Both the position numbers and the translations under genes were made by a program. A stretch of 33,491 bases of DNA from a virus, in the IMG/VR virus record IMGVR_UViG_3300020205_001780, positions 1-33,491 of that record; one strand, given 5' to 3'. This document shows positions 5,122 to 29,414 of this stretch, one piece after another (position 1 is the first letter of the stretch; each line of letters starts with the position of its first letter). Under the pieces are notes generated by a model that had not been told where the DNA came from, did not search any database, and worked only from the letters and a program-made list of their open reading frames with translations.

Positions 5122-8100
5122 ATGATAGGGACTGGATTTGAATCTAGAGTTAAAGTACAGCAAATAGTTCAGAATCAACTTCCAGAATTTATACTGGATG
5201 AAAGCCCGAATGTAGTTGAATTCTTAAAGCAATATTATATTTCTCAGGAATATCAAGGTGGTCCTGTAGATATTGCGGAGAATTTAGATCAGTACTTAAA
5301 ACTAGATAATCTTACTCCAGAAGTAGTCGTAGATAGTACATACCTCACTTTAGGAATTTCTCCTATTGATAGCACAATTCGGGTCAGTAGCACAAAGGGA
5401 TTTCCACAAAAATATGGTCTTTTAAAGATTGATGACGAGGTTATTACTTATACTGGAATAACAACAAATACCTTTACTGGTTGTGTTCGTGGATTTAGTG
5501 GCGTAACTAGTTATCACCAAGATTTAAATTCGGAAGAATTGGTATTTTCCGAGTCGGAAAGTGTCCAACATACTGAAAACACTTCAGTAGAGAATTTGAG
5601 TTCATTATTTTTGAAAGAATTTTATGTAAAATTAAAATCAGCATTAACTCCTGGATTAGAGAATAATGATTTTGTTTCCGAGTTAAATGTTGGCAACTTT
5701 ATAAAAAATGCTAGATCTTTCTATCAGGCAAAGGGAACAAACGAATCATTTAGAATTCTATTTAATGTTCTTTATGGAGTAACCCCCACAGTTGTAAACT
5801 TAGAAGATTTTTTAATTAAACCCTCTTCTGCAAAGTTTATTAGAAGGGAAGTTGCAATAGCAGAAAAAATATCTGGAGATCCTTCCAAATTAGTTGGACA
5901 AACTATTAAAAAATCTATTAATGGTATTACCGATGATATTACAAGTGCATCAATTTCTGAAGTAGAACCATTTACCAGAAATAATACACAATACTTTAAA
6001 ATTTCACTATTTGTTGGATATGGTGATATTTCTGCAGTTGAAGGCAATTTTACAATTACACCAAATACAAAGTGTCTAGAAAATGTTTCTGTTGGATCTT
6101 CTGTAATTTCTGTTGATTCTACTATTTCATTTGCTGAGAACGGGACAATTATATCTGGCAACAATACTATTACATACGCAAGCAAAAGTATTAATCAATT
6201 TTTTGGATGTACTGGAGTTGAAGAAGAAATTTCTTCTGCAGATAATATAAGATATGATGAAGTTTATTATGGGTATGGAGGTGGAGATATTAATAAGAAA
6301 GTTGAATTGAGATTTACTGGAGTATTATCTAAATTTATACAAGTATCTGATAAGTTTGATGTCAGTGAAGGTGATACTATTTCAGTCAAAAATCTTGGAG
6401 AACTGATCAAAAATCCAGAGCAAAATAAAACATATAAAGAAATTTTTGCAAATTCTTGGATATACAATACTAGTTCAAGATACCAAATAAAAGATATTGA
6501 TACTTTTACATTAACTAGTCCAATCGATAAATCAAGTTTAAAAGTTGGAGATAGGATTGAGATTCTAGAGAGAAATACTAATAATATAGTATCTTCCGCA
6601 TATATTTCGAATATTGATGGACCTAATAATGCAGTTACTTTAAACAATAATACTAATCCAAATTTAGATGCTGACGTACAATATGATTTAAGAAGAAAAA
6701 TTAATACTGCAAGTAGCTCAGTAATTCCAATTGAATTTGGAAATAATGTTATATTATCAGATATACAAAATCTATATACTGACGAAAATTATGCATATGT
6801 TGCTTCAAATTCATTACCTTCCAATAACCAATCCAATCCCAATCAATCAATTCCGTACACATACCAAATAACAAAGACCACCAATAAAGCATCATTTAAT
6901 GGTAGCACAGTTGGAAGTTTAACAGACATAGCTGAAGATGGTGCATATTCAACTATAGTATTTGAAGATCCAGTTAGTTTTATCAATGGCGATAAAATTT
7001 ACTATCAACCAGCAGGAAGTCCTTTGGTTGGATTAGAAACTGGAAATTATTATGTTAAAATTGAATCCGTAGATAAGAAAAGAATTAAACTTTATTCATC
7101 CAGATCATTTGTTGGGGGATCGGATTATCTAACATTTAATCCATCAAGTGGTTTACATACATTCACATTAGATTCTCAGAAATCTGGTAAAATCGGCGCA
7201 CAAAAAATACTTAAAAAATTTCCACTAAATGGCAATATCACGAATGGAATTGGACAAGTAACAACTCCAGGAACAACTGGAATGTTAATTAATGGAGTAG
7301 AAATCAATAACTACAAATCAAATGATAAAATTTATTATGGACCTATAGAATCTATTAGCGTATTAAATGGCGGATTGAACTATGATGTCATTAGTCCACC
7401 ATTTGTATCAATTTCATCTGGATTAGGAACGACTGCTTTAGCGCAACCAGTAATTAGTGGTAGTGTAGTAAGCGTTAATATAGATGCTCAAGATTATGAC
7501 ATTGATACTGTTATATCGATTGGTGTAACTGGTGGGAACGGTTCTGGTGCTTCCCTAGAACCAATAATTAAAAAAAGAGTACGTGAAATTTTCTTTGATG
7601 GACGTACAACTACCAATTCTGGGGGAATTAGTACAAGTACAAGACAACTCACATTTCTAACTAATCACAATTTGGTTAATGGCGAAACCATAATTTACAA
7701 CACCAATGGAAATGCTTCAATTGGTGTTGGAATTGGAACTTCAACATTGGTCAATAATGCATCTTATTATGCAAAAATTGACAATAATACGACAATTAGA
7801 TTATATCAATCTATCTCAGATTATTCTGCTGGTATTAATACTATAAGATTTAGTGGGAATAATACTTCAGGAATCCATAAATTTAGAACCACTTCAGGTA
7901 AAAATACAATATCAGAAATTAAAGTACTTAATGGCGGAAGTGGATATACCAATAGGAAATTGATTGTTAAACCAATAGGAATATCCACAATTAATCATAC
8001 AATTAATTTTAAAAATCATGGATTTAGTAGTGGAGAGTTGGTAACATATACTTACGAAACTTCAACAATAGGTATTTCCACATTATCACAGTTTTATGTG

Positions 8101-11100
8101 TTAAAGAATGATGATGATTCTTTTAAATTGTGTGATGCTGGTATTGGTGGTACAAATACTTCAAATTATAATAGACAGAAGTATATTGAATTTTCTTCTA
8201 CTGGATCTGGATATCAGTACTTCAATTATCCAGACATCTCAGTTTCTATACAATATACTTCAGTTGGGTTTGGTACAACAACACAAGAATATCAAACACT
8301 TGTAGCAACTCCCAAAGTTAGGGGTAGCATTATCAATATTTACTTATATGAAAATGGAACTGGGTATGGATCAACAATTTTAAATCTGGAAAGAAAACCG
8401 TTAATAAGTGTCAAAAATGGTAAAGAAGCGCAACTGAAACCAATCTTTATAAATGGCACTGTAGATTCAGTAAATATTCAATATGGCGGATCAGAATATT
8501 ATTCAAATCCAGATTTAGTTGTAATTGATCCAACAGGTGCAGGAACTGGTGCAGAATTGATTCCGGTTATTAGTAATGCAAGAATAACTGATGTTAAAGT
8601 TATAAATCCCGGAATTGGATATTCAACCGCATCAACAATTCAAGTAAAACCGGTCGGTTCTAATGCAGTTTTTGATACCAACATCAGATCTTTAACAGTT
8701 AACAATAATATAAAATTTGGAAATGAACTTTTATTAGAAACTAAAAATAAATTACAATATTCTATTTGTGGGTATTTTAATACATTACAACAAGCATTTA
8801 ATGATAATGGATCTGTTTCCAATATAATTGGATGGGCATATGATGGAAACCCAATATATGGTGCATACGGATATTCTGATGCAAAGGATGCAAATTCCAT
8901 CCCTAAATTGTTAACTTCTGGATATCAATTAAATATATCAAATGTTATTGATAAACCAACCGGATTTTCAAATGGATTTTTTGTTGAAGATTATCAATAT
9001 ACAAACTTAGGAGATCTGGATGAAAATAATGGAAGATTTGGAAAAACTCCGGAATTTCCAAATGGAATCTACGCATATTTTGCTACTATTAATACCACAT
9101 CATTAGAACCACAATTCCCATATTTTATTGGAAATTCATATAGGTCTAATATTTTAGAAGAAAATTATACACTTGATCAATCGTTTGATTTTAATAGTTC
9201 CAATTTACTTAGAAATACTTTTCCATATAAAGTATCCGATAACTATGCAAATAATGACTTTATAATAGAAACTAATGAAGTTACGAGACAAAAATCTGCT
9301 ATCGAATCAGTAAGCACTGGTAGTGTAAATGATTTTGATATTATCAATTCTGGTTTAAATTATAATGTAAATGATACTTTAAACTTTGACAACAATGGTA
9401 CTGAAGGCAGTGGATTGATTGCAAAGGTATCTCATATAAACGGAAAGGATATTACAAATTTAAATACTTCTGTAGAAACTTATGAAAATGTAATTTTTAC
9501 TTGGAATAATGATAAAGAAATAAAAATTTCAATCTTACCATATCACAATTTATTAGATGATGATTATGTTACAATTTCTGGATTATCACCCGATTCAAAT
9601 TTAAGCAAATTAAATAATTCATATCAAATAAACGTACCTTCATATTATTCCAATCTTGTAAATAATCTTCCAACGTCATCTGTGGGATTAACAACAGAAA
9701 TATATGTAACACAACTTCCAGGATCAGTATCTGTTGGAAGTAGTATTAGAATTGGAACAGAAGTATTATCAGTACTAGAAGTATTTGGAAACTTAAATAT
9801 ACTCAAAGTAAAGAGGGGATCAACTGGAGTATCTCATACTGAAACTACACAAATAAATTTTATTCCTGATTCATTTACAATTTCCCAGAATATTGATTAT
9901 TTTGATTCCAAAGTTAATAATAAAGTATATTTTAATCCAACTAAATCTGTTGGTGTTGGAACTACAAGTGGAATTACAAATTCTATAACTTTACAATTTG
10001 GCAATTCTACTATCACAAGAAATATTCCAACACAAGGAATTTATATTGAGAATCACCCATTTACAACTAATCAACAAGTCACATTTATACCTAATGGTCT
10101 AGAGATTTCAGTTTCAGCTTCATCAACTTCAACTGCATTTGATCTACCACAAAATGTATATGTAACTAGTAAGAATAAAAATACTATTGGAATTAAAACT
10201 ACTCTCAATTCTTCTGATGTATTCTTCCTTAGTAACGGTTCTAATAGTGACAAATACTCTTTCGAAAGTACATATACCCAATTAACTGGAAAAGTTGAGA
10301 AAATCAAATCTACAGTTTCAGTTTCAACATCCCATGGGTTAACTGCCGGAGATATTATCAGTCTCAATGTTCAACCAAATCTTTCGGTTGGTATTGGAAC
10401 TTCAGCATCAGTTTATGTTAAAAGAGATGTAACTACTGGAAATATTTTAATCAATCCTATTGGATTTAATTCCACTGGTATTAATACAACAACTAGTACA
10501 ATTACAATTAACTCACATAATTTAAAAACCGGAGATAAAGTTTTATACTCTTCCAATTTGGTTGCATCTGGACTATCAATTAGACCTTACTATGTCTATA
10601 AAGTTGATAACAATAATATAAAACTTTCAGATACTTTGATTGATTGCAACACTATTCCACCAACTACAGTAAGTATTGCATCGACTGGGGGTGTAAACCA
10701 GTCTATTTCACCAATAAATCCACAAATTCAATCAATCAAAAATAACAATTTAATATTTAATTTATCAGACACTTCACTTTCTGGGTATAATTTTAAAGTT
10801 TATTACGATCAAGAATTTAAAAATGAATTTGTTTCTACTGGATCTGCTTCCGGATTTAATTTATCTGGTGTAGGAACTGTTGGAATTTCAACTAATGCAA
10901 CACTCACTATCAATTATGATGACCGTTTACCATCTCAATTATATTACAATTTGGAAAAATATGGAGATATCACTACACCTGATACAGAAGTAAATGATTA
11001 TTCAAAAATACTATTTGTAGATAGCAGATATATTTCAAATTATAAAGTTTATGGAATCGGGTCAACTACCTTCAATATTTCTTTGGTTAATGTTCCGGAA

Positions 11101-14100
11101 AAATTACAATATTCCCAGAATCAATGTGATATTTTAAATTATACCACAAATTCACTATCCGCAAAAGGATCTATTGATAAAATTAATATTGTTTCGAGTG
11201 GAACAGGATACAAAAAAATACCTACATTTGCAGGATCTAATTCTATAGAAGGTCAAGATGCTTATATTATTGCAAAATCCTCAACTATAGGCAATGCAAG
11301 AGAAGTGCGAATTATTAATGATGGATTTGAATACTCTTCAGATAAAACTCTGCAACCTACAGCATACATATCACCATCAATTACAATTAAAAATTCAAAT
11401 ACAATTGAGAATATTACAGTTACTGATGGGGGAAGTGGATATACTAATACCCCATCAATTGTGATTATAGATTCCATCACTGGAGAAGAAATTAATAGTG
11501 GAATTTTAGAAGCAGTTTTATCCGGAAATACAATCTCTTCAGTAAATATTATACAAGAACCAAAGGGTCTTCCAGAAACAACAGTACAATTATTCACAAC
11601 AAACAATACAAATGGTATTAGTATTCAAAAAGTAGAATCTTCTTCTAGCGGAATATTTACGTGTTTCATAACAACACCAGTGCTTGGATTTGCAATTAAT
11701 CCATTTAATGCTGGGGATAAAGTATTTGTGGAGGGTATTCAAAAAATTGGTACTTCCGGATCTGGATTTAATTCAAAAGATTATGGATACCAGTTCTTTA
11801 CCGTTAGTGGTTATTATGGGGGAGGCACTCTCGATAGAGTCGTATTTGATCTAAATGCTATTGGATTAACAACAAATACTGGAATAGCAAAAACTATCCA
11901 AGATTCGATTGGTAATATTATAAAGAGTACTGATTATCCATCATTTGAAGTTAAGCAGATACCAGCTCCGTTTCTTATTGGGGAGAAAATTATTTCCAAT
12001 AATGTTGAAAGGGATTTAACTATTACATCATATGATAAAAATTTTATTAAGGTATTTGGTTCATATGAATTATCTGTTGGAGAAGTTATTGAAGGTAAAG
12101 AATCTGGAAATATAGCGACCATTGATGCTCTTGAGAATAACTATGGAAGATTTGAAATTGATTATTCTGTTAGAAAAGATATTGGATGGATTGATGATAT
12201 TGGAAAATTAGACCAAGATAATCAAGTAACTTCAAATAATGATTATTATCAAAATCTATCGTATACAGTAAAAAGTCCAATTTCATATCAAGATCTAAAA
12301 GCACCAGTTAATAGTTTACTTCATACTAGTGGACTAAAGAACTTTGCAGATACTGGAATTACATCAACTACAACCTCTGGAATTTCATCATCATCAAATG
12401 CTACAACTATAATTTATGATATAATTGAAGAAAATAGAGTCGATACAATTTATGATTTTGATTTAGTTAAGGATATCGACACTGTTGGGTCATCTTCTAA
12501 GTTTTTAAAATTAAAATACAAAAAATTGACCGACTATATTGAGTGCAAGAGTAATGTAGTTTTAAAAATAGATGATATTAACAGACAATTTTCAAATTTA
12601 GATGGAGAACCAAGTGTATTTTTAAATATTCTTGATTTAGATTCTGCAGCATCTTATACTAACTTATTATTCAGAGTTTCCAATTCGAATAATTCCCAAA
12701 TTCAATTAACAGAATTGGTTATATTGAACAACGGTACTGATCGATTCATGTTAGAAAAAGGAACTGTAGTTAACGCTGGAACAGGAATTGAACATATTTC
12801 TGGAGAAGAGATCGGTTCATTCTCAATAGTTACAAATGAATTAGATGATACTTATCTAGAATTTACACCTACTGATCCATATAATGTTGATTATAATTTA
12901 AAACTGATTAAAAATCAGTTTAATTCAACTTTACCAGGTATTGGAACAACATCTATTGGTTTTATAGACTTAACAGGATCTAATGGAATTGCAACATCCG
13001 GAATAACAACTTCAATTATATCTGTAAATCCTAATAAATTTACTTCACTATACGTTAATGCTCATATTGTAAATGATGAAACAAATGATATGAACTTTGT
13101 TGAGTTATATTTGACTCATAATGGTGTAGATACTTATATTTCAGAATATTATTTTGATTCTGAATATCAATCTAGTAATTATTCTGGAAATTTTATAGGA
13201 TCATTTAGTGCAAATATTTCTCCTGGGACATTATCGTTAAATTATACAAATAATTCTTCCGATGATATTACGATTAGGTCAAAAATTGTTGGATTTGGTA
13301 CAACATCAGTTGGCACTAATCCATATCGTTTTAAATTACCAGGACAATTAAATGGATCTGAAAGAACTGCAATATATCAATCAGCATATTCGACGATAGT
13401 TTCTGTAGCATCAACGTCCATAATATCATTAAATAAAAATATTTTTAATGCGGTTAAGTCTTTAATTAAAGTTAGTGCTGGGTCAACTAGTGCTCTTCAC
13501 CAAATTATGTTAGTACAAGACACTACTAATGTTTATATTCAGCAATCACCATTCATTTCTGTTGGAAGTTCTACCGGAACTAGTACTTTTGACACCAACG
13601 GAATTGGAACTTTTGGTGGAGAATATTCTGGAAGTAATTTTGAATTAAAATTCTACCCAGACCCATCGATAACATCTCAAATTAATATTGTATCATTTAA
13701 TCAATGTTTATACACAGATTTGGATGATACAAATATTCCAAAAAATCTTGAATATGGGTCTGTATCAGAATCTGCACTTGTTAATTTTTACAATTCAATT
13801 AATGGAGATAGAATCAACAGAACTGATTTTAACTTAACTTCTAACACATATCCAATTTTTGCAAAAACATTCGACCCATCAGATTCAAATATCTTAAATC
13901 AATCTACAGGTGAATTTATAATACCGAATCATTTCTTTAGTAATTTGGAGGAGATTGCATATACTCCAAAATCAACATTCTTAGGAATTGGTGCAAGTTC
14001 GATGATGATTGGACCATCAACTAATTTACCATCAACAGTTTTTGTAATTAGAATTGATGATAATAAATTTAAATTGGCAACAACAAAAAACAATGCTCAA

Positions 14101-17064: not shown

Positions 17065-17067
17065 ATA
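17060..17067 (+). promoter_or_regulatory. Late promoter TATAAATA before gp8
   Basis: This is an exact match to the T4 late consensus octamer, 17 bases before the gp8 ATG and overlapping the TAA stop of the giant gene upstream. The very short leader fits with the absence of a Shine-Dalgarno. Confidence 0.75.
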
Positions 17068-17084
17068 TCTAAAAAACTATTAAT

Positions 17085-18638
17085 ATGGCAGCAGTCGTAA
17101 CAGAGCAATTTAGAATAGCGAATGCGAGCAATTTCGTAGATTCTGTAGTATCTAATAATAATTCATATTACGTTTTTTTGGGACTAGTCAATCCAGGATC
17201 AGTTGGATTTGGAAGAACTACTGATTGGAATACTGATGTACCAAACCCAACTGATAATCTTCAATATTCTGGGCATTATAGAGATACTGCTTTATTTGGT
17301 AAAAAAATAACTACTAGCAATATTAAAAGAATTATAAGAAAAGTAACTTGGGCAGCCAATACATCCTACGATATGTATAGGCATGATTATAATATCTCAA
17401 ATCCAACACCAAATTCAAACTCAAGTAGATTATATGATTCAAATTATTATGTAATTAATAGTGATTATAGAGTTTATATTTGTATCGATAACGGTTCTTC
17501 TGGGCAAATTCCTAAAGGAAATAAATCACAGGATGAACCAACATTTACAGACTTGGAACCATCTGCAGCAGGAGTAAGTGGTGATGGATATATTTGGAAA
17601 TATCTATTTTCAGTATCTCCAAGTGATATTGTAAAATTCGATTCTACTGAGTATGTTGTAGTTCCAAATAATTGGGAAACATCGACAGATTCTCAAATTA
17701 TTTCTGTTAGAGAATCAGGAGATTCCAGTATAAACTTTAACCAAATTAAGAAAGTATATATTGAAAATGGAGGATCTGGATATAATTCTGGAACTTCTGC
17801 AACTAAAAATGTCGATATTCTTGGAGATGGTAGTGGCGGTAAAGTCTCAATTACCACCACTAACGGTGTAGTTACTTCTGCTGTAGTTACTTCTGGTGGA
17901 AGTGGATACACTTGGGGGGTGGTTGATTTAGGTAGCATTCAACCAAGTCCTTTATCATCACCAGCAAAATTAATACCAATTATTCCACCATCTAGGGGAC
18001 ATGGATATAATATTTATTCGGAATTAGGTACTGATAAGGTATTAGTGTATGCTAGATTTGATGATTCAACTAAAGATTTTCCTACAGATACTAAATTTGC
18101 TCAGATTGGCATTGTAAAAAATCCAACCACTTTTACTTCCAATAATATTTTTACAGAAAATCAATACTCATCACTTTATGCAATAGGAATTACTACAACT
18201 TTCAGCGGGATTCCATCTATTGGGGAACAAATAACGCAAGTAAGAACAGATCAAAAAGTTGCAAAAGGATATGTAGCATCATATGATACTGAAACTAAAG
18301 TATTGAAGTATTTTAGAGATAGATCTTTATATTTTGGTAATAGTGAAAATGAAACTGACTATGATAATGTTACTTCAGATTCTAATGTATATGATTTCCA
18401 ATCTGACGGACAAAATATTATAGGAAATTCATTTACTGCATCAATTAATACTACATTGAATGATAATAAAATTATAATTGGTGGTAAAGTTGTAGATTTG
18501 GGAGCAACTTTTAGAAGTGGACTTGCAAATCCAGAGATAAATAAAAAGACAGGAGATATAATTTATATTGATAATAGACCCCTGGTTGTAAGAGACATCA
18601 GACAAAAAGAAGACGTTAAAATTATTCTGGAATTCTAA
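17085..18638 (+). CDS. gp8: Baseplate wedge protein gp8
   Basis: The 517-residue protein aligns by eye with T4 gp8 (334) at both ends. The N-terminal V-T-E-Q-F-R-I-A-N-A-S-N-F matches the 'VtskFRtekmlnFy' start. G-D-G-Y-I-W-K-Y-L-F-S-V (about residues 166-177) and E-Y-V-V-V-P-N-N-W follow the T4 'GDGYVWEYLFei...EYIVVPwp' block. The C-terminus G-D-I-I-Y-I-D-N-R-P-L-V-V-R-D-I, ending in I-I-L-E-F, matches T4 'GEMIYMENRPpii...ILFtF'. gp8 dimers join gp7 and gp10 in the outer wedge. Extra length includes two 'GxGY' modules at about residues 222-285 (G-G-S-G-Y-N-S-G and G-G-S-G-Y-T-W-G). It has its own late promoter overlapping the upstream stop codon. Confidence 0.93.
   Translation: MAAVVTEQFRIANASNFVDSVVSNNNSYYVFLGLVNPGSVGFGRTTDWNTDVPNPTDNLQYSGHYRDTALFGKKITTSNIKRIIRKVTWAANTSYDMYRHDYNISNPTPNSNSSRLYDSNYYVINSDYRVYICIDNGSSGQIPKGNKSQDEPTFTDLEPSAAGVSGDGYIWKYLFSVSPSDIVKFDSTEYVVVPNNWETSTDSQIISVRESGDSSINFNQIKKVYIENGGSGYNSGTSATKNVDILGDGSGGKVSITTTNGVVTSAVVTSGGSGYTWGVVDLGSIQPSPLSSPAKLIPIIPPSRGHGYNIYSELGTDKVLVYARFDDSTKDFPTDTKFAQIGIVKNPTTFTSNNIFTENQYSSLYAIGITTTFSGIPSIGEQITQVRTDQKVAKGYVASYDTETKVLKYFRDRSLYFGNSENETDYDNVTSDSNVYDFQSDGQNIIGNSFTASINTTLNDNKIIIGGKVVDLGATFRSGLANPEINKKTGDIIYIDNRPLVVRDIRQKEDVKIILEF
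18536..18543 (+). promoter_or_regulatory. Possible internal late promoter GATAAATA
   Basis: GATAAATA, seven of eight bases of the late octamer, lies inside the end of gp8 about 100 bases before the next gene. It could add transcripts for that long gene. It is also in AT-rich coding sequence (E-I-N-K-K codons), so chance is a real alternative. Confidence 0.25.
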
Positions 18639-18643
18639 AAAAA

Positions 18644-21600
18644 ATGGCACAAAAAACAGATTTAAACATTAGTCCATATTATGATGATTTTGATTCCGAA
18701 AAGAATTTTTATAAAGTCTTATTCAATCCAGGTCGTCCAGTTCAAGCAAGAGAACTAACAACTTTACAATCTATTTTACAAAATCAAATAGAATCTTTTG
18801 GAAGTAATATATTCAAAGAAGGTTCTGTAGTAATACCAGGAAATATTGCATATGATGGACAATTTTATTCTGTAAAATTAAATCCAACTAATTTTGGTGT
18901 TGATATTTCAATTTATATTAACAATTTTATCGGTAAAAAAATAACAGGACAATCTTCGGGAACAACAGCAACAATTCAATACGTTGCCTTTCCAGATAAT
19001 AATAATGTAGAATACTTAACAATATATGTAAAATACTTAGATTCTGACAATAATTTCCAATTCAATCCATTTGTAGATGGAGAGTCCTTAATTGCTGAGG
19101 AAAATATAACTTATGGCAATACTACAATTAATGCTGGAACTTCTTTTGCATCTTTAATTTCATTAAATGCAACTTCAATAGGATCTGCAGCATCTATTGC
19201 TGATGGTATCTATTTTATTAGGGGTTATTTTGTAAATGTATCTAAGCAAACTATAATTTTAGACAATTATACAAATACTCCGTCATATAGAATTGGATTG
19301 AAAATTGATGAATTAATTATTAATGCGAAAGATGATCCATCATTATACGATAACGCAAAGGGATTTACAAATTATGCCGCTCCAGGTGCGGATAGATTTG
19401 AAATTAATTTGACTTTAACTAAAAAGTTATTGTCTGATACTAATGATACTGATTTTGTCGAATTGCTGAGGGTTGAAAATGGAAAGATTAAGAAAATTGA
19501 AACAAAAACTCAATATAATATAATTCGTGACTATTTGGCAGAAAGAACTTATGATGAATCTGGAGACTACGCGGTAAGTCAATTTAATCCATCATTACAT
19601 AATTCATTAAATGATAGACTGGGCAATAATGGACTATTCTTTGATACTGAGACAACTGAACAGAGTAATACTCCTTCAGATGATTTAATGTGTGTAAAAA
19701 TATCCCCAGGAAAGGCTTATGTAAGGGGATATGATGTAGAAAAAGTTTCTACAACTATTATTGATGTTGAAAAACCAAGAGATACTCAATCAGTAGATAA
19801 TGCCAATATTCCCTTTGAAATGGGAAATATTTTAAGGGTTAATAATGTACTTGGTGCTCCCGCACAAAGATATGCAGTACAATTATATAATCAATTTGCC
19901 GGTGCAGGAACTCAAATTGGTGCTGCTAGAGTATATAATTTTAGTTTGACTGATGCTGCTTATAGTGGTGCAGTAACTAATTGGGATTTATATCTTTATG
20001 ATATCCAAACATATACAACTGTAGGTTTAAATACTTCAGTTTCAAATTCAGAATTACCTGCGACATCATTTGTAAAAGGTAAGAGTAGTGGTGCTAGTGG
20101 ATATGCAGTTTCTGCTGGTGGCGGATCTGCTACAATCAGTTTAAGTCAAACTTCAGGAACATTTTCAGTTGGAGAGCAGTTAATTATCAATGGAATTGAT
20201 TTTTCAAGAACTATTAGAACTGTAACCTCATATTCCACTGAAGATATCAAATCAGTATATCAAACGGGAGTATCTGGATATCCACCAACATTTACTGCAG
20301 ATTGCCTTCTCGAAAGATTTAGACTTCCAAATGGAGTAGTTGAGGTAAATATTAGTGGAACAACCGTAAAAAGTGCTGGAAAAGTATTTACTGGAGTAAA
20401 AGTTGGATCAATTATCAGATATCAAACTGGATCTAACGATGAAACATTTAATAGAGTAACTGAAGTTTCTCCTAGTGGAACTTCACTAACTATTGCCGCA
20501 ATTACTCCAAGTATTTCTGGTATTTACTCGGGAGCAGTTACAGATGGAAATTATCCAGTCACAATTGGCGCACCAATTATAAGAAATCAAGGTGCAGGAT
20601 ATCTATATGCACAACTCCCAGATTCGAATATTTCTTCAGTAAATCTTTCGGATTCAGTATTAACTATTACTAAGCAAATAACAGGAGAGACTACAGATGG
20701 TTCTGGAGTATTAACTTTTAACTTATCAGCAATTACTGGAATTACTAGCGCATTTTTTGCCCCATTTGATGAAGAAAGATATTCCGTCCATTATTCTGGA
20801 GGTGGAATTGCAGCAATAACTTCGGATCAATTTTCTCTTAGTGGCAATACAGTATCTATTAGTGGATTATCTGCTGGACAGACTGGTGTTACTGTAAATA
20901 CAACTCTAATTAAAAATGGAATTCAGAGCAAAATAAAAGAATATAATAGGAGCAAAACCCTATCAGTATCACTATCAAAATATTCACAATCTGGAAGTGG
21001 GATTAGTTCTTCAATTGGTGACGGACTTACATATAATCAATATTATGGATTGAGAGTTCAAGATGAAGAGATATCACTAAATTATCCAGATGTAGTGAAA
21101 GTAATATCAGTATATGAGTCATTTGATTCTTCGGCACCTACATTAGATCAGGTACAATTTACATCTAGTGCTAATGTATCTACAAATGCAATTATTGGTG
21201 AAGATATACTAGGAAATTCTAGTAAAGCAGTAGCAAGGATTGTTTCAAAACCATCAACAAATGTTTTGGGAATTGTATATTTAAATTCAGAAAGATTATT
21301 CGCAGGGGAAACCGTTGTATTTAAAGATTCAAATATAATTACGGAAATTGAATCCATTACTCCTGGCAAATATAAAGATATAACAAATTCTTATACTTTA
21401 GACAAGGCACAAAAAGATCAATACTACGATTATTCTAGAATTGTTAGAAATAAAGGTGAGGCAGAACCTGCTAAACAATTATTAGTAGTATTTGATTATT
21501 ATTCTGTACCATCTAATGATACTGGCGATGTATTTACAGTATTAAGTTACAATCAAGATAGATTTGCAACTGATATTCCAACTATTGGACCAAGATCGGT

Positions 21601-24600
21601 AAGATCAACAGATACTTTAGATTTTAGACCAAAAGTTCCTGTATTTTCTGGAAGTAGTTCATCACCATTTGATTTTTCTTCAAGAAATTCTACAACTGAA
21701 CCAAATTTAATTCTTTCACCAAATGAAAGTTCTTTGATTGGTTATGATTACTATTTACCAAGAATTGATAAATTATACCTTGATAAATTTGGAACTTTTA
21801 TACTTGAAAGGGGGATATCCTCAAGAGATCCTAAAGCACCAAATAAGAATGATGCTGTAATGGAAATTGCAACCATCAAGTTGCCTCCATATCTTTATAG
21901 TCCATCTGATGCTATCATTTCATTAGTGGATAATAAAAGATATACGATGAGAGATATTGGTTTAATTGAGGATAGAGTTCAAAATCTAGAAAGAGTTACT
22001 TCATTATCATTACTTGAAATTAATACACAAACTCTTCAAATTCAAGATTCCGAAGGTAGAAATAGATTTAAGAGTGGATTTTTTGTTGATGACTTTAAAA
22101 ATTATGCATTAATCAACAAACAATTATCAAATATTAGGGTCAATACCGCAGCAAATGAACTAACACCAATAACTAGTAGAAATTCACTAAAATCCCAAAT
22201 TGCTCCAGAAACAGCAGTTACTGATGAAGATTTGGATTTATCCGAGAATTTTAAATTATTAGATCCAAATATTCAAAAAACTGGAAATGCTGTAACTTTA
22301 AAATATGAATCTATTGGGTGGATTGAACAAGCATTTGCTACAAGAGTTGAAAACGTAAACCCATTTAATGTTATTGTTTATAGTGGAGATCTTAAATTAA
22401 GTCCAGAAATTGATACTTGGGTAAGAACAATTCAACTTCCAGATAAAAATATCGGCATAACACTTAATTCCACAAGAACACTTGAAAAAAATCTGGTAAG
22501 CAATGCTTTTGTTACACTAACTCCTATTCAAACTACAAGTAATAGTACAGTCAATCTTCCTGATATATTTGGTCATGGAAATTGGACCGAATCCAGCAGT
22601 TCCATATCAGAATCTTCATCAACTAGCACCAGTACCACATCTAATACAACACAAAGTATAGATTATGATACGACGAGTAATACTGACACTACTATCAGGA
22701 ATGTTTTAGTATCGTCATCCGATGAAACATTTATGAGATCCAGGAATACACAATTCTCTGCATCAAATCTTAAACCGGGAACACAATTCTACCAATTCCT
22801 TGATGGAAATAGTGGTGTTGATTTTATTCCAAAATTGGTTGAAATAGCAAATGATACCACATTAGCAAATTATGGTGCTTCTGGGGCATTTACAGTTGGT
22901 GAAACTGTGATTGGATCATCCAATGGAAATAATTTAATTTCATTTAGAGTTTCATCCCCAAATCATAAGTATGGACGATTCAATTCACCATCGACAACAT
23001 ATACAACGAATCCATATGTTAAGAGTGAATCCATACCATCCGCATATAGTCAATCATCAAAAATTCTGAATATTGATACAATTTCACTATCAGAAGAAGC
23101 TCAGGGAAAATATTCTGGATATTTAGTTAAAGGTATGAGACTGGTTGGGCAGACTAGTGGTGCAGTTGCCTATGTAAAAGACCTGAGACTAATCTCTGAT
23201 AATTATGGAGATTTGATTGGAGCATTCTATTTAAAAGATCCAAATGCAAATCCAACTCCAACTGTTAGGATTAATACGGGAACTAAGACATTTAAATTGA
23301 CATCAAGTTCAACAAATGATTTAGGTCTTCCTGGTAGTAATTCAATTTCATCTGCAGAAACAAATTATAATTCAGATGGAACTCTTGAGCAGTGGGAGAA
23401 TACTGTCACTGCAACTACAAGTAATTTAACAACACAAACAGTAACTAACTTAACAACAAATACAACACAATCAGTTACAACAATAAACACCCATACAACA
23501 ACAACAATTCAAAGATTTGTTGACCCACTTGCACAATCATTCGTTGTTGGTGGAAATGTAGAAGCACCTTCGCCAAATTCTACAAATGATGATGTAAATG
23601 GAGCATTCTTGACTGCCGTTGATTTATTCTTTGCAAGTAAGGATGGTGGTAACGCCCCAGTAAAAGTTGAAATAAGAACTGTTGAACTAAGTACACCTAC
23701 AAGAATTGTTATTGGAAATCCAGTTACATTAAGACCAGATCAAGTTAATGTATCCAGTAATGGGGAAACTGCAACTAATGTTACTTTTGATGAACCAATT
23801 TATTTGCCACCAGGAAGAGAGTATGCTGTTGTAATTATTTCGGAAAATAGTGATCAATATGAACTATGGACTGCTGTTATGGGTGAAAAGACAGTAAATA
23901 CCCAATCACTTCCAGATGCTGATAGTGTTACTTATTCCAAACAGTTCTCTATGGGTAGTTTGTTTAAGTCACAGAATGGATCTATATGGACTGCAAACCA
24001 GGAGCAAGATCTTAAGTTTAAACTTTATAAAGCGCAATTTACATCATCTACAGGAACTGCTTTCTTCTACAATCCAACACTGGATGAAAGTAATGGGTAT
24101 GTTCAAAGATTAGGAAATAATCCATTAACAACTCTACCAAAAACACTTACTGTTGGAATTACTACAACAACATCTGCCTCATTGATTGCAGATTTATCTA
24201 AAGGTAGAAAAGTTGTTGATGGGACAAAAAATAACGTTTATGGATATATTGTTGGAACAGGAAGTTCTATATCATCAGTAGGAGTTACTACTGGCGGAAG
24301 TAATTATGTCACCGATACTTCTGTAAATACTTACAATATTATTGGAAGTGGTTCTGGACTTGTATTGAATATCACAGCAACCAATGGCATAATTACCGGA
24401 ATATCCAGTATAATAAATCGAGGAAATGGATATGCTATTGGGGACGTGGTTGGAATAGTAACTTCTTCTGTGTCATCTAACACAGGAAAGGATGCAAGAA
24501 TTACTGTTGAAGCAATTGGCAGTAGTCTTGATACATTATACCTATCAAATGTTCAGGGAGAATCCTTTACTGTTGGCGCTGGAGTAAGTTATTATAATAA

Positions 24601-26008
24601 TAGTGGCACATTAGTATCTCTTGCAAGTACTTTTATTAGAAGTTCTTCAAATTCTGGAAATCAATATTCTGGGAACTTTATTAGAGTTGATCATTTTGAT
24701 CATGCAATGTACGGAAACACCAATAAACTTACCATCAGAGATGTTCAATCTAGCATACCACCAACTATTCTTTCTGCAACAGTAATCTCACAAGAAGTAT
24801 CAACAATCAGTATTGGGGATACTTCAAATTTTGGAACCTTTGAGGGAGTTGCAGTAGGTGGAGGAAATACTGGATATGTAAAAATTGAAAATGAAATTAT
24901 TGCATACACTAGCGTAGGAAATGGAATTTTAAACATTGCTTCTGGTGGAAGAGGTATTGATTCAACAATCGTAACCCCTCACGATTCTAATAGTTTAGTG
25001 TATAAGTACGAATTAAATGGAGTTTCTTTAAGAAGAATTAATAAAACTCACGATATTAGTGATGTAAATATTGGATTGGATAGGTATTATATTGAAATTG
25101 ATAGATCTTTAAATGGAACTAATAGAAGTACAGATGCAACGATGCCACAGTTGTCATTTACTTCAGAGGCAAATCTAGGAGGTTCTAAAGTACTTGCCAC
25201 TCAAAATATTCAATATAGTTCAATAGTACCTCATTATGATATCATTACTCCAGGTTCTTCTACTTCTGCCACATCAATAATTAGAACCACTTCCGGAACT
25301 AGTGTTGGTGGAAATGAAACATCATTCTTAGATAATGGATTTGAACCAATTCAACTAAATGCATTAAATCAATTAAGATCAGTAAGACTTGTATGCTCTA
25401 AGGAAAATGAAACTGAGTATCTTGACAATCTCCCTAGAAATAAATCATTTACTACCGGAATAACACTCAATACTTCAGATAGTAACTTATCTCCAATAAT
25501 TTATCTCAATACTGCTTTTACTGAATTTATTTCTAGTCGCTTAAATAATCCTATTTCAGATTATGCATCAGATGGTAGAGTTAATTCAGTATTAAATGAT
25601 CCACATGCTGCAGTATATGTCTCAAATACTGTAAACTTGGCACAACCAGCTACTACACTAAAAGTTATTTTATCAGCATATCGTCATTCTTCTGCCGATT
25701 TTAGAGTTCTTTATAGTTTAATTAGACCAGATTCTAGTGAAATTGATCAGTCATTTGAATTATTCCCAGGATACGATAATTTGGCATATACAACTGCTGA
25801 CGGATATAAAGTTTTAGATAAATCAAAGAATAGTGGATTACCTGACACTTTTGTATCACCAAGTCTTGATAACCAATTTTTAGAGTATCAATTTACTGCA
25901 GATAATCTAAGTTTATTTACTGGATATACCATCAAAATTGTAATGTCTGGAACTAATCAGGCATATCCCCCAAGAATTAAAGAACTTAGAACACTTGCGG
26001 TAAGATGA
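18644..26008 (+). CDS. Giant DUF4815 virion protein, gp9/gp10 position (2454 residues)
   Basis: The N-terminus (residues about 5-62: N-I-S-P-Y-Y-D-D-F, K-V-L-F-N-P-G-R-P-V-Q-A-R-E-L-T, L-Q-S-I-L-Q-N-Q-I) is the DUF4815 signature; V-K-I-S-P-G-K-A-Y-V-R-G-Y-D-V follows near 350 and a helical D-R-V-Q-N-L-E-R near 1110. Two Ser/Thr/Asn-rich linkers (about 1316-1345 and 1586-1624) flank a central segment. After the second comes a jelly-roll-like block starting D-P-L-A-Q-S-F (about 1627) with E-P-I-Y-L-P-P-G-R-E-Y-A-V-V. One 'E-I-I-A-Y...GRG...PHD' module (2053-2133) and 'GxGY' units resemble those in gp7. The end (F-T-G-Y-T-I-K-I-V-M-S-G-T-N) is typical of cyanophage homologues. Its place after gp8 is where T4 has gp9-gp12, so a peripheral baseplate or fibre-attachment role is inferred; I withhold a T4 name. 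Confidence 0.85.
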   Translation: MAQKTDLNISPYYDDFDSEKNFYKVLFNPGRPVQARELTTLQSILQNQIESFGSNIFKEGSVVIPGNIAYDGQFYSVKLNPTNFGVDISIYINNFIGKKITGQSSGTTATIQYVAFPDNNNVEYLTIYVKYLDSDNNFQFNPFVDGESLIAEENITYGNTTINAGTSFASLISLNATSIGSAASIADGIYFIRGYFVNVSKQTIILDNYTNTPSYRIGLKIDELIINAKDDPSLYDNAKGFTNYAAPGADRFEINLTLTKKLLSDTNDTDFVELLRVENGKIKKIETKTQYNIIRDYLAERTYDESGDYAVSQFNPSLHNSLNDRLGNNGLFFDTETTEQSNTPSDDLMCVKISPGKAYVRGYDVEKVSTTIIDVEKPRDTQSVDNANIPFEMGNILRVNNVLGAPAQRYAVQLYNQFAGAGTQIGAARVYNFSLTDAAYSGAVTNWDLYLYDIQTYTTVGLNTSVSNSELPATSFVKGKSSGASGYAVSAGGGSATISLSQTSGTFSVGEQLIINGIDFSRTIRTVTSYSTEDIKSVYQTGVSGYPPTFTADCLLERFRLPNGVVEVNISGTTVKSAGKVFTGVKVGSIIRYQTGSNDETFNRVTEVSPSGTSLTIAAITPSISGIYSGAVTDGNYPVTIGAPIIRNQGAGYLYAQLPDSNISSVNLSDSVLTITKQITGETTDGSGVLTFNLSAITGITSAFFAPFDEERYSVHYSGGGIAAITSDQFSLSGNTVSISGLSAGQTGVTVNTTLIKNGIQSKIKEYNRSKTLSVSLSKYSQSGSGISSSIGDGLTYNQYYGLRVQDEEISLNYPDVVKVISVYESFDSSAPTLDQVQFTSSANVSTNAIIGEDILGNSSKAVARIVSKPSTNVLGIVYLNSERLFAGETVVFKDSNIITEIESITPGKYKDITNSYTLDKAQKDQYYDYSRIVRNKGEAEPAKQLLVVFDYYSVPSNDTGDVFTVLSYNQDRFATDIPTIGPRSVRSTDTLDFRPKVPVFSGSSSSPFDFSSRNSTTEPNLILSPNESSLIGYDYYLPRIDKLYLDKFGTFILERGISSRDPKAPNKNDAVMEIATIKLPPYLYSPSDAIISLVDNKRYTMRDIGLIEDRVQNLERVTSLSLLEINTQTLQIQDSEGRNRFKSGFFVDDFKNYALINKQLSNIRVNTAANELTPITSRNSLKSQIAPETAVTDEDLDLSENFKLLDPNIQKTGNAVTLKYESIGWIEQAFATRVENVNPFNVIVYSGDLKLSPEIDTWVRTIQLPDKNIGITLNSTRTLEKNLVSNAFVTLTPIQTTSNSTVNLPDIFGHGNWTESSSSISESSSTSTSTTSNTTQSIDYDTTSNTDTTIRNVLVSSSDETFMRSRNTQFSASNLKPGTQFYQFLDGNSGVDFIPKLVEIANDTTLANYGASGAFTVGETVIGSSNGNNLISFRVSSPNHKYGRFNSPSTTYTTNPYVKSESIPSAYSQSSKILNIDTISLSEEAQGKYSGYLVKGMRLVGQTSGAVAYVKDLRLISDNYGDLIGAFYLKDPNANPTPTVRINTGTKTFKLTSSSTNDLGLPGSNSISSAETNYNSDGTLEQWENTVTATTSNLTTQTVTNLTTNTTQSVTTINTHTTTTIQRFVDPLAQSFVVGGNVEAPSPNSTNDDVNGAFLTAVDLFFASKDGGNAPVKVEIRTVELSTPTRIVIGNPVTLRPDQVNVSSNGETATNVTFDEPIYLPPGREYAVVIISENSDQYELWTAVMGEKTVNTQSLPDADSVTYSKQFSMGSLFKSQNGSIWTANQEQDLKFKLYKAQFTSSTGTAFFYNPTLDESNGYVQRLGNNPLTTLPKTLTVGITTTTSASLIADLSKGRKVVDGTKNNVYGYIVGTGSSISSVGVTTGGSNYVTDTSVNTYNIIGSGSGLVLNITATNGIITGISSIINRGNGYAIGDVVGIVTSSVSSNTGKDARITVEAIGSSLDTLYLSNVQGESFTVGAGVSYYNNSGTLVSLASTFIRSSSNSGNQYSGNFIRVDHFDHAMYGNTNKLTIRDVQSSIPPTILSATVISQEVSTISIGDTSNFGTFEGVAVGGGNTGYVKIENEIIAYTSVGNGILNIASGGRGIDSTIVTPHDSNSLVYKYELNGVSLRRINKTHDISDVNIGLDRYYIEIDRSLNGTNRSTDATMPQLSFTSEANLGGSKVLATQNIQYSSIVPHYDIITPGSSTSATSIIRTTSGTSVGGNETSFLDNGFEPIQLNALNQLRSVRLVCSKENETEYLDNLPRNKSFTTGITLNTSDSNLSPIIYLNTAFTEFISSRLNNPISDYASDGRVNSVLNDPHAAVYVSNTVNLAQPATTLKVILSAYRHSSADFRVLYSLIRPDSSEIDQSFELFPGYDNLAYTTADGYKVLDKSKNSGLPDTFVSPSLDNQFLEYQFTADNLSLFTGYTIKIVMSGTNQAYPPRIKELRTLAVR

Positions 26009-26362: not shown

Positions 26363-26363
26363 A

Positions 26364-26371
26364 TATAAATA
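26364..26371 (+). promoter_or_regulatory. Late promoter TATAAATA for the neck operon
   Basis: An exact TATAAATA lies two bases after the stop of the 56-residue ORF and 25 bases before the next ATG at 26397. It probably drives the whole coupled run from 26397 through gp16. Confidence 0.75.
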
Positions 26372-26396
26372 GAAAGTAGATCTCCAAAATGGTTAA

Positions 26397-26741: not shown

Positions 26742-27190
26742 TGTCAAATATAAGAGTAAGAGTTGGGCAACAAAATTCAGTAAAAGTAATTTCAACGGTT
26801 TCTGGAACCCCCTTCACTCAAAATGCCGTAAATGTAATTGGTGGAATTGCTTCAGTTACTCAACTGAATGTTTCTGGTCTATCCACATTTGTTGGTGTAG
26901 CAACTTTTGCCAATGATGTTTATATTGGCGGCGATCTTTATATACGAGATGATTTAAAAATTGATGAATTTACTGCCAGAAATGCTAATATAACTGGAAT
27001 TGCAACTGTTTCGGGTGCTTTTTATTATGGGTTATATAGCACTGGAGGAGTTGCTTATTTTGACTCCACTGGTCGTATGGTTTCTACTGGTTCAACTAGT
27101 TCTGCAATTAATTATACCAACTATATACTTACGACAAATAATGCCGGAATTACTACCTGGTCAAGTACCATAGACGGAGGAGAATACTAA
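26741..27190 (+). CDS. Fibre-like virion protein with beta-repeat stem
   Basis: A 149-residue protein starting MSNIRVRVGQQNSVKVIS. The middle part (L-N-V-S-G-L-S-T-F-V-G-V-A-T-F, then D-V-Y-I-G-G-D-L-Y-I-R-D-D-L and N-I-T-G-I-A-T-V-S-G) has the short 'x-V-x-G-x-S-T-F' strands seen in cyanophage fibre and structural proteins, which form trimeric beta-helical stems. There is no enzymatic motif. Both ends overlap neighbours by one base (TAATG), so it is produced stoichiometrically with gp13 and the beta-sandwich protein. In T4 the wac fibritin gene lies directly upstream of gp13; this protein is in the equivalent place and could be a neck-fibre analogue, though no sequence similarity to fibritin is visible. 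Confidence 0.7.
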   Translation: MSNIRVRVGQQNSVKVISTVSGTPFTQNAVNVIGGIASVTQLNVSGLSTFVGVATFANDVYIGGDLYIRDDLKIDEFTARNANITGIATVSGAFYYGLYSTGGVAYFDSTGRMVSTGSTSSAINYTNYILTTNNAGITTWSSTIDGGEY

Positions 27191-28032
27191 TGGCAAAACC
27201 AGCAAGTAGGCAACAACTTATAGACTACTGCCTAAGGCGTCTAGGTGCTCCTGTATTGGAGATTAACGTTGATGATGACCAGATAGATGATTTAGTTGAT
27301 GATGCCCTCCAGTACTTCCAAGAGAGGCACTTTGATGGTGTTGAAAGAATGTACCTCAAGTACAAAATTACTCAAGCAGATCTTGACAGGGGTAGAGGTA
27401 GAAATACTAATGGTGTTGGTGTAACTACGACTACAGCAACATCAAATGTTACTGGTATTGGAACTGTGTCATATAATTTTTATGAAACTTCAAATTATAT
27501 TCAAGTACCGGATTCTGTTATAGGTATTGAAAAAATCTTTAAATTTGATACTAGTTCTATTTCTGGTGGAATGTTTAGTATTAAATATCAGTTGTTTTTA
27601 AATGACTTATATTATTTTAACTCAGTTGAACTTTTACAATATGCTATGGTCAAATCATATCTCGAAGATATTGATTTTCTATTAACTACTGATAAACAGG
27701 TTAGATTCAATAAAAGACAAAATAGATTATATTTGGATATTGATTGGGCATCACAAGCGAAAGACCAATACATTGTTATCGATTGTTATAGGATATTAGA
27801 TCCCAACACATTTACCAATGTTTATAATGATAGTTTTATCAAAAAATATCTTACGGCATTAATTAAAAAGCAATGGGGACAGAATTTAATTAAATTTAGG
27901 GGAGTTAAACTTCCTGGTGGAATTGAATTAAATGGTAGGGAACTATATGACGATGCTGAAAGGGAATTAGAAGATATTAAACAAAGAATGGTACTTGAGT
28001 ATGAACTTCCACCTTATGATTGCATTGGTTAA
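27190..28032 (+). CDS. gp13: Neck protein gp13 (head completion)
   Basis: A 280-residue protein, near T4 gp13 (309). The N-terminus K-P-A-S-R-Q-Q-L-I-D-Y-C-L-R-R-L-G-A-P-V-L-E-I-N, the D-D-Q-I-D-D-L-V-D-D-A-L-Q-Y-F block, Y-I-Q-V-P-D-S-V-I-G-I-E-K-I-F and the C-terminal G-Q-N-L-I-K-F, G-x-x-L-P-G-G-I-x-L-N-G are signatures of the family. gp13 and gp14 form the neck ring that closes the DNA-filled head and accepts the tail. A short Gly/Thr-rich loop (residues about 73-98) replaces what is a compact turn in T4. The start shares one base with the upstream stop, and gp14 begins two bases downstream. Confidence 0.93.
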   Translation: MAKPASRQQLIDYCLRRLGAPVLEINVDDDQIDDLVDDALQYFQERHFDGVERMYLKYKITQADLDRGRGRNTNGVGVTTTTATSNVTGIGTVSYNFYETSNYIQVPDSVIGIEKIFKFDTSSISGGMFSIKYQLFLNDLYYFNSVELLQYAMVKSYLEDIDFLLTTDKQVRFNKRQNRLYLDIDWASQAKDQYIVIDCYRILDPNTFTNVYNDSFIKKYLTALIKKQWGQNLIKFRGVKLPGGIELNGRELYDDAERELEDIKQRMVLEYELPPYDCIG

Positions 28033-28034
28033 TT

Positions 28035-29414
28035 ATGGCACTCAATCCATTTTTTCTACAAGGTTCAGCAAATGAACAACGATTGATTCAAGAACTCATA
28101 AATGAGCAATTGAAAATATATGGAGTTGAAGTTACATACATTCCAAGGAAATTTGTAAGAAAAGAAACTATTATAAGAGAGGTAACATCATCAAAATTTG
28201 ATGATAATTTTGCGCTTGAAGCTTATGTGCAAAACTATGAGGGATATAGTGGATCTGGAGATATTTTAACAAAATTTGGAATGAGTTTAAAGGACGAACT
28301 TACTCTAATCATTTCAAAAGAAAGATTTGAAGATTTTATATCACCATTCCTAGAAGGAATGAGTGATGAGGAGATTGAATTATCAACTCGTCCAAGAGAA
28401 GGTGACATTGTTTATTTTCCTTTAGGTAGGAGATTATTTGAAATTAAATTTGTTGAGCACGAGCAACCATTTTACCAATTAGGTAAGACTTATGTTTATG
28501 AACTAAAATGTGAACTATTTGAATATGAAGATGAAGTTCTTGATACATCTATTGATGAAATTGACCAAACATTGCAGAATCAGGGTTATATCACATCTTT
28601 ACAATTAATATCGATAGGTTCTACTGCAACAGTAGCATCTACATTATCTACTGGATATGTTCAAAAAATTTATTTGACCAATGATGGATATGGATATAAT
28701 TCAGCACCAGTTATTGCAATATCCACTGCGCCTTCTGGTGGAATTGATGCACGTGCCGTTGCCATTACAACTAGTATCAATGGTTCATATTCCATTAAAG
28801 AGATTGTTTTGACAAATGCTGGTGCTGGATATACTATTGCACCTTCAATTATTATTAGTGGTGGTGGGGGATCTGGAGCAGCTGCAACTTGTGGAATACA
28901 AACTGTATATAATGGAATAAGAACTATTAGTATTGGAAATAGTGGAACTGGATATGCAGTTCCACCTACCATTTCAATTAGTTCCCCAACTATTGGACCA
29001 GGGATTGCAGCTTCAGCATTTACAGTACTCCAAGGTACAAATATTTCACAAATATATATTTCCAATGCTGGAGCAGGATTTACTGTATCGCCAACAATTA
29101 CAGTAAGTCCCCCACCAATTAATTCTGGTACTGGTAATTTTACTTTCAATGAGGAAGTGATCGGTTCTAGATCAGGAACTATTGCAAGAGTTAAATCTTG
29201 GGATAAAGACACTAATATCTTGGAAATATCAATTAATGATGGACAATTCTATCCTGGAGAAATTATTGTAGGATCTGCATCTTCTGCAAGATATTCAATT
29301 AAAGAGCATATTATGACTTCATTACATGATAAATATGAAGAAAATGATGAAATACAAACAGAAGCAGATTTTATTATAGACTTTTCAGAATCAAATCCTT
29401 TTGGTAACTATTAA
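28035..29414 (+). CDS. gp14: Neck protein gp14 with a large repeat insertion
   Basis: The N-terminal half (residues 1-175) is gp14: A-L-N-P-F-F-L-Q-G-S-A-N-E-Q-R-L-I-Q-E-L, Y-G-V-E-V-T-Y-I-P-R, E-L-T-L-I-I-S-K and P-R-E-G-D-I-V-Y-F-P. The last 35 residues (D-F-I-I-D-F-S-E-S-N-P-F-G-N-Y) are also standard. Between them lies an insertion of about 200 residues with four 'GxGY' units (nt near 28665, 28805, 28925, 29045) and one 'F-N-E-E-V-I-G-S-R-S-G' module. The total of 459 residues compares with 256 in T4. The ATG at 28035 is used because gp14 proteins begin M-A-L-N-P-F-F; a frame-compatible ATG at 28020 would overlap gp13. gp14 joins gp13 in the neck; the insertion probably projects from it. 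Confidence 0.92.
   Translation: MALNPFFLQGSANEQRLIQELINEQLKIYGVEVTYIPRKFVRKETIIREVTSSKFDDNFALEAYVQNYEGYSGSGDILTKFGMSLKDELTLIISKERFEDFISPFLEGMSDEEIELSTRPREGDIVYFPLGRRLFEIKFVEHEQPFYQLGKTYVYELKCELFEYEDEVLDTSIDEIDQTLQNQGYITSLQLISIGSTATVASTLSTGYVQKIYLTNDGYGYNSAPVIAISTAPSGGIDARAVAITTSINGSYSIKEIVLTNAGAGYTIAPSIIISGGGGSGAAATCGIQTVYNGIRTISIGNSGTGYAVPPTISISSPTIGPGIAASAFTVLQGTNISQIYISNAGAGFTVSPTITVSPPPINSGTGNFTFNEEVIGSRSGTIARVKSWDKDTNILEISINDGQFYPGEIIVGSASSARYSIKEHIMTSLHDKYEENDEIQTEADFIIDFSESNPFGNY
28660..29110 (+). repeat. Four GxGY beta repeats inside gp14
   Basis: Consecutive units read I-Y-L-T-N-D-G-Y-G-Y-N, I-V-L-T-N-A-G-A-G-Y-T, I-S-I-G-N-S-G-T-G-Y-A and I-Y-I-S-N-A-G-A-G-F-T, each followed by a 'P-x-I-x-I-S' strand and a glycine/serine loop. 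Spacing is about 40-47 residues. The same unit recurs in gp7, gp8 and the DUF4815 protein. Confidence 0.75.

Follow-up and report, generated by a model that had tools for sequence, protein, structure and literature searches.

Immunoglobulin (Ig)-like domains occur in tailed-phage virion proteins, for example as the C-terminal domain of the lambda tail-tube protein, in T4 Hoc and in others. Optional accessory domains of virions affect adsorption and particle behaviour, with Ig-like domains as the standard example. Here we describe a different beta module, the GxGY unit, in gp7, gp8, DUF4815/VrlC and the neck protein gp14 of a virus sequence of 33,491 bases (IMG/VR record IMGVR_UViG_3300020205_001780, a virus record of its own, which as a whole is called the window below). 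The window contains genes of gp25, gp6, a 3980-aa protein in the position of gp7, gp8, DUF4815/VrlC, a gene in the position of gp13, gp14 and gp15; by this gene set and its nearest named relatives, it belongs to the Kyanoviridae (T4-like cyanophages). The unit is inserted between intact parts of its host proteins, and its copy number varies; at fixed sites, some close relatives have it and others lack it. It is probably a promiscuous, dispensable domain decorating virion surfaces.

As for the neck, T4 gp14 residues 178-256 lack order in isolated necks, but in the virion they contact gp15 extensively (PMC12270204).

One family of GxGY units in four virion proteins

The unit spans ~42 residues and consists of a strand, the motif N-x-G-x-G-Y, a P-x-I-x-I strand, a glycine-rich loop and a further strand. 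The window encodes ~12 units in the gp7-position protein (gp7 below), two in gp8, two in DUF4815/VrlC (VrlC below) and four in gp14 (Table 1). When only this phage's four gp14 units were used, the profile was too narrow, recovering gp8 but not gp7, and it was rebuilt with 80 further gp14s. The resulting profile hidden Markov model (HMM), still composed of gp14 units only, was run over the window proteins and recovered 10-12 units in gp7, the pair in gp8 and all four of gp14; two VrlC units scored more weakly. An earlier sequence-only reading of the window had proposed a single unit family in four virion proteins, and this is largely borne out, as the gp14-only profile finds gp7 and gp8 and profile comparison links them (hhalign E 4e-9 and 5e-5, respectively). 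All positions it had named in gp7, gp8 and gp14 fall on real units by HMM, and its counts of two units in gp8 and four in gp14 were recovered, while about 13 units claimed for gp7 became about 12.

Chance occurrence was assessed with local shuffles preserving composition, using a strict motif and the gp14-derived HMM at a threshold of at least 7 bits. The strict motif was matched 10 times in gp7 (0.21 expected, P about 0.001), four times in gp14 (0.03 expected, P about 0.001) and once in gp8 (0.02 expected, P 0.02), with no match in VrlC. With the HMM, eight real matches in gp7 stood against 0.01 per decoy, and one in gp8 against 0.

When profiles were compared by hhalign, the gp14 arrays matched the gp7 segment with 96% probability and gp8 with 68% probability, at the E values given above, whereas the negative controls gp6 and the protein at nt 32130 stayed at <0.3%. 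A comparison of gp14 with the set of tail-tube, sheath and other domains gave E 3e-17. Judged from these profiles, the GxGY units of gp7, gp8 and gp14 are one homologous family; unrelated gp14 and gp7 profiles had been named beforehand as the outcome contrary to this, and the two proved to be related. VrlC entered the comparison as one single sequence and gave E 0.09, so its membership is based on conservation and position. The units also link PHROG families of neck, wedge and fibre proteins: the profiles of families 460, 701, 708, 2885, 5342 and 19630 include GxGY units and cross-match through them.

Variation of the gp14 array

The array and a second shared module (see below) sit between the gp14 neck core and a C-terminal arm. 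PF11649, which describes the core, was matched by 61/61 aligned gp14 homologues, and the core also matches the T4 gp14 structures 9mkb/9lu4 (E about 5e-24). The arm is retained by the compared array-less Kyanoviridae gp14s, being degenerate in some, and its conserved '..DFSExNPFG..' tail probably represents the equivalent of the gp15-binding arm of T4. That the array makes up most of an insertion absent from T4, as was supposed earlier, holds in the comparison of gp14s.

Unit numbers were compared across 21 gp14s. There were no units in S-SSM5, S-CAM1, S-RIM44, S-CRM01, MA10, phiM12, OC and T4. S-RIM2 and ACG-2014a had a pair at a second site, which lies within the C-terminal module, P-HM1 had about three, and most gp14s of the window's clade had four, with two clear and two degenerate units in ACG-2014f. 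Synechococcus virus S-PRM1 (locus L104, 298-2268) carried eight, and its gp14 of 656 aa is the longest neck protein of those compared. The neck core was retained in every case, whatever the number of units. The only T4 match in the unit census was one marginal 11-bit hit in the sheath protein.

In the gp14 tree, S-SSM5, which has no units, groups with S-RIM2 and ACG-2014a at 100/100 support, and ten carriers of first-site arrays form a separate clade (88/88). Since these two groups lie apart, repeated gain or loss of arrays in gp14, involving more than one site, is the most likely history.

The second module, 'FxxGExVxGxxSGxxAxVxxW...xLxV..G.FxxGExIxG', is shared by gp14 (29139-29315), VrlC and, probably, gp8; VrlC has a further match (31 bits) at aa 475-513 (nt 20066-20182). 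In gp14 this module adjoins the GxGY units, and in the gp14s of S-RIM2 and ACG-2014a it is interrupted by a GxGY pair. Homing endonuclease genes are annotated adjoining gp14 in S-SRM01 (L094, 32513-33040) and MA10 (L108, 1814-2467).

Units of gp7, gp8 and VrlC in relatives

Of the gp7s of P-SSM2, S-SRM01 and Bellamy, two or all three retain the Gly/Tyr of most units at the same position, with single-phage losses in some; S-SRM01 gp7, for instance, lacks the last unit pair (aa 3719-3800). The gp8 protein has 517 aa vs 334 aa in T4, and its second unit is alignable with the two-unit domain found in tail tubes and sheaths. As for VrlC, two or three units had been counted before. Two are conserved in S-SRM01 and Bellamy only, not in P-SSM2, S-SSM5 and HTVC008M; the site at nt 20580 was rejected, the motif being absent there in 5/5 relatives.

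As their positions are common to other Kyanoviridae genera, the units of gp7 and gp14 in this phage are old, judging by these alignments. The sequence-only reading had inferred spread by recombination between genes. This stands insofar as the module moves in and out of virion proteins, a pattern seen in gp14, at gp7 aa 3719-3800 and at a fixed tail-tube site, but no recent gene-to-gene copying inside this genome was detected, though no tree of units was made.

Distribution beyond cyanophages

Prokaryote genomes were scanned with the two-unit domain that occurs naturally in S-RIM2 gp14, which yielded 56 loci distributed over archaea and many bacterial phyla. The host proteins included a lambda-like tail tube (PF16460), tail sheaths, SusD proteins (twice) and a PL8 polysaccharide lyase (once). 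Six units were present in a sheath on a Nostoc contig (PF17482), and two in Acetobacter sheaths of the DUF3383/phrog_205 type. In the five genomes followed up, matches at E<=1e-3 were confined to one to three open frames per genome. The family extends beyond T4-like baseplate and neck proteins to bacteria, archaea and unrelated phages. When tail-tube and sheath arrays were searched against phages by tblastn, no match was obtained, which we ascribe to low-complexity masking and not to absence. Runs of two units were the commonest, and cellular runs of at least three were even in 21 and odd in 15 cases; we do not claim that units are always paired, because the query itself was a pair and the even and odd counts are close.

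The tail tubes provide natural pairs with and without the domain. It was found in 5/198 Pseudomonadaceae genomes, in frames of 255-267 aa of tail-tube type. A search with the tail-tube flank only, which does not select for the GxGY domain, recovered the PF16460 tail tube in 16 Pseudomonas genomes, with the two-unit domain present in six and absent in ten. The insert always occupies the same site, between '..GWSDG..PT' and '..FxLPxTRTWF', and loci without (L186) and with the domain (L187) share about 82% DNA identity on either flank. Five changes are needed on the tail-tube tree, and its well-supported branches force at least three gains or losses. In one Pseudomonas tail-tube gene (L192, 1447-2559), the GxGY insert runs straight into a lambda gpI-type-like tail assembly protein; this fusion is either a prophage deletion or an assembly error.

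Structure predictions and database searches

AlphaFold2 was run on 61 gp14s. The array was predicted confidently (predicted local distance difference test, pLDDT, about 87-95), the neck core poorly. In the array model, a long strand is followed by a short one and by a third, which turns within a few residues into the first strand of the next unit; this pattern repeats. The best part of the gp7 segment model likewise has the short and third strands and the tight turn, and strands at segment residues 162-167, 178-184 and 187-195 were assigned to the unit at aa 2095-2145. With a mean pLDDT of 53 for the gp7 segment, the fold comparison proposed earlier is usable on the gp14 side only.

A Foldseek search of the gp14 model against the PDB gave nothing at E<=0.001, with sensitivity possibly lowered by the poor neck core; the one Ig hit was titin (E 0.12, probability 0.11). 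Against predicted structures, many viral proteins were returned, among them P22-gp10-like proteins, one giant-virus protein and neck and structural proteins of cyanophages. Searches of PDB chains with the two-unit profile gave no match at E<=10, and the window-unit profile reached E 0.44 at best. No Pfam family covered the gp14 arrays or the two-unit domains and no Ig-type match fell in unit regions, and no NCBIfam family covered the unit. Xylulokinase was the only, chance, match in NCBIfam; such matches are regarded as artefacts of composition. No description of the unit was found in the open-access literature on the motif and on cyanophage neck or baseplate structures (subscription papers and bioRxiv preprints being outside the search), in Pfam 2025 or in NCBIfam 2026, and only in the sense of these sources is the unit unnamed.

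Features of the window and neighbouring genes

The gene order is the same as in P-SSM2 and S-SRM01, and gp14 of the latter is 63.5% identical to that of the window. The gene of gp14, a member of the T4 gp14 neck family (PF11649), lies between the gp13-position gene and gp15. The former (27190-28032, 280 aa) is syntenic with the annotated gp13 of P-SSM2 and S-SSM5 and itself has no Pfam match, and gp15 (29414-30211; PF16724 E 6e-89) follows gp14.

A YHYH domain (PF14240, E 1.6e-28) was observed in gp7 between unit clusters (8779-9099). Upstream of the baseplate genes, at 2211-2537, there is a small protein corresponding in size and position to the annotated S-adenosylmethionine decarboxylase of S-SRM01. 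Pelagibacter phage HTVC008M (L096, 7562-9557) has genes annotated as the curli components CsgF, CsgG and CsgB.

Table 1. Unit-bearing proteins of the window and the modules delineated within them (comparison, with relatives unless stated otherwise; wHMM, widened HMM)
Feature	Residues (aa)	Position	Strand	Evidence and remarks
gp7-position giant baseplate protein	3980 in total	5122..17064	+	phrog_2885 baseplate wedge E=0; PF23786 weak; ~12 units
gp7 unit	742-785	7345..7476	+	HMM 13-14 bits; G and F/Y kept in P-SSM2, S-SRM01, Bellamy
gp7 unit	930-953	7909..7980	+	HMM; wHMM; comparison
gp7 unit	1070-1110	8329..8451	+	strict motif IYLYENGTGY; conserved
gp7 unit	1114-1152	8461..8577	+	tandem with unit at aa 1155; HMM; wHMM; comparison
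gp7 unit	1155-1195	8584..8706	+	HMM; wHMM; comparison
gp7 variant unit 'GYxxGD'	1404-1438	9331..9435	+	wHMM 18 bits; conserved
gp7 unit	2018-2055	11173..11286	+	HMM; hhalign; comparison
gp7 degenerate unit	2059-2092	11296..11397	+	4 bits; strict motif; inside hhalign match
gp7 unit, clearest of gp7	2095-2145	11404..11556	+	18.6-23.5 bits; hhalign with gp14 E 4e-9
gp7 unit	3350-3390	15169..15291	+	HMM; wHMM; comparison
gp7 unit	3719-3772	16276..16437	+	tandem with unit at aa 3778; 22 bits without null2, 4.6 with null2
gp7 unit	3778-3800	16453..16521	+	HMM; comparison
gp8	517 in total	17085..18638	+	PF09215 E 3e-13; phrog_438; carries two-unit domain
gp8 unit 1	221-260	17745..17864	+	9.7-10.5 bits; wHMM 23 bits; hhalign with gp14 array E 5e-5
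gp8 unit 2	263-290	17871..17954	+	2-3.5 bits; wHMM 8 bits
gp8 possible second module ('GExxxG..A.V..W..xTKVL')	374-415	18204..18329	+	hhalign with gp14 C-terminal module 66%, E 5.5e-5
DUF4815/VrlC protein	2454 in total	18644..26008	+	phrog_358 E=0; S-SSM5 homologue annotated VrlC
VrlC unit	1876-1915	24269..24388	+	conserved in S-SRM01 and Bellamy; weak score from single sequence
VrlC variant unit	1918-1960	24395..24523	+	HMM; comparison
gp14 core, T4-like neck domain	1-171	28035..28547	+	PF11649 E 7.7e-32, 111 bits vs Pfam gathering cut-off 25
gp14 unit 1	209-249	28659..28781	+	HMM; AlphaFold2; gp14 comparison
gp14 unit 2	254-293	28794..28913	+	HMM; AlphaFold2; gp14 comparison
gp14 unit 3	295-335	28917..29039	+	HMM; AlphaFold2; gp14 comparison
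gp14 unit 4	337-373	29043..29153	+	HMM; AlphaFold2; gp14 comparison
gp14 C-terminal module 'FxxGExVxGxxSGxxAxV'	369-427	29139..29315	+	HMM 83 bits
gp14 C-terminal arm '..IIDFSESNPFG..'	432-459	29328..29411	+	comparison with other gp14s

Possible role of the GxGY unit

We propose that the GxGY unit would serve as an accessory beta-module used singly, in twos and in longer arrays, which phages may put into those loops of virion proteins that tolerate an extra domain, i.e. in gp14, gp7, gp8 and VrlC here and in tail tube and sheath elsewhere. Tail-tube and sheath subunits, two of its hosts, are packed around the tail channel, so the unit would have to point outward, and from such an orientation decoration of the virion surface would follow. 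With six copies of gp14, as in T4, 24 units might surround the neck. The unit might be of benefit by adhering with low affinity to glycans on the cell envelope or on particles. This weaker part of the proposal is made because SusD proteins and a polysaccharide lyase carry the unit, and by this analogy adhesion to glycans is plausible, though less likely than not. Among the common purposes suggested by the sequence-only reading, surface decoration is still the best one, and polysaccharide binding is suggested by the SusD/lyase context alone. Baseplate stiffening drops out as a general purpose, since the same domain is found in a non-contractile, lambda-like tail tube. Taken as a whole, chances seem slightly better than even that a so far undescribed, prokaryote-wide beta-repeat, with neither a Pfam entry nor a solved structure, acts as a mobile outer-surface decoration in nearly all classes of tail proteins (tube, sheath, neck, baseplate), with natural insertion/deletion pairs.

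Several points weigh against surface decoration and adhesion. The outward orientation is an argument, not something seen in any virion structure. The conserved Gly, Tyr and Pro residues appear to be structural and do not reveal a binding site. Large proteins of unknown function predominate among the bacterial matches, and the SusD and lyase context may therefore be due to chance. Models of the gp14 neck core and of the gp7 segment are poor (mean pLDDT of the latter 53), and the two-unit query biases the copy-number picture of the genome scan towards two.

The main rival is a structural spacer or stiffener, with units lengthening and rigidifying baseplate and neck arms so that wedge proteins and neck reach each other or the fibres. 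Such a role would agree with the many units held by the giant wedge proteins, with the placement of the gp14 array between neck core and gp15-binding arm, and with a repeat number that varies as for a ruler. We nevertheless consider it unlikely: the core is retained in array-less gp14s, gp8 has only two units, and lambda-like tail tubes, which need no spacing, may have or lack the domain. Next comes the possibility of a passenger, i.e. a self-folding, tolerated domain spreading by recombination with no benefit to the phage, which might be indicated by the scattered presence and absence at one site, with several gains or losses, and by the very wide occurrence in unrelated proteins. However, gp14 units 1-4 and many gp7 units keep the same positions and conserved G/Y across genera although deletion is evidently possible, which suggests selection to retain them, and a mere passenger appears less likely still.

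It could also be argued that the units of gp7, gp8 and gp14 are unrelated Gly/Tyr-rich beta turns, alike through composition, given their low-complexity composition and the scores of just a few bits that several copies in gp7, gp8 and VrlC reach singly. This is very improbable, as local-composition shuffles give almost no matches, profile-profile comparison gives E 4e-9 and 5e-5 with clean negatives, and unit positions are conserved across genera.

If surface decoration is correct, phages would possess a second, unrelated module used like Ig-like domains and common in marine and freshwater cyanophages. The natural pairs of one tail-tube protein with and without the domain make the decoration function directly testable. 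Moreover, defining the domain would keep annotation pipelines from passing on names like 'baseplate wedge' or 'head closure' via the GxGY unit.

Comparison with known systems

Like the Ig-like domains of phages, the GxGY unit is an accessory, optional beta domain found in several virion proteins (neck, wedge, tail tube, sheath); Ig-like domains also occur in tail tubes and bacterial surface proteins, and weak surface adhesion has been proposed as their effect. Unlike these single, two-sheet domains of ~90 residues, the GxGY unit is an internal, often arrayed three-strand repeat of ~42 residues, with no Ig match by sequence (Pfam) or fold (Foldseek). The PHROG families listed above are whole-protein families, none of which sets the unit apart as a domain. 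T4 gp14 (PF11649; 9mkb, 9lu4-9lu7) has a neck core of the same family as the N-terminal 171 residues of the window gp14, followed by a C-terminal arm, but neither GxGY units nor a GExxxG module lie between core and arm. Finally, some members of the Phage_TTP_11 (PF16460) tail tubes carry the same two-unit domain at a single site. Host protein and phage type differ from those of the window, and the family thus reaches non-contractile tails.

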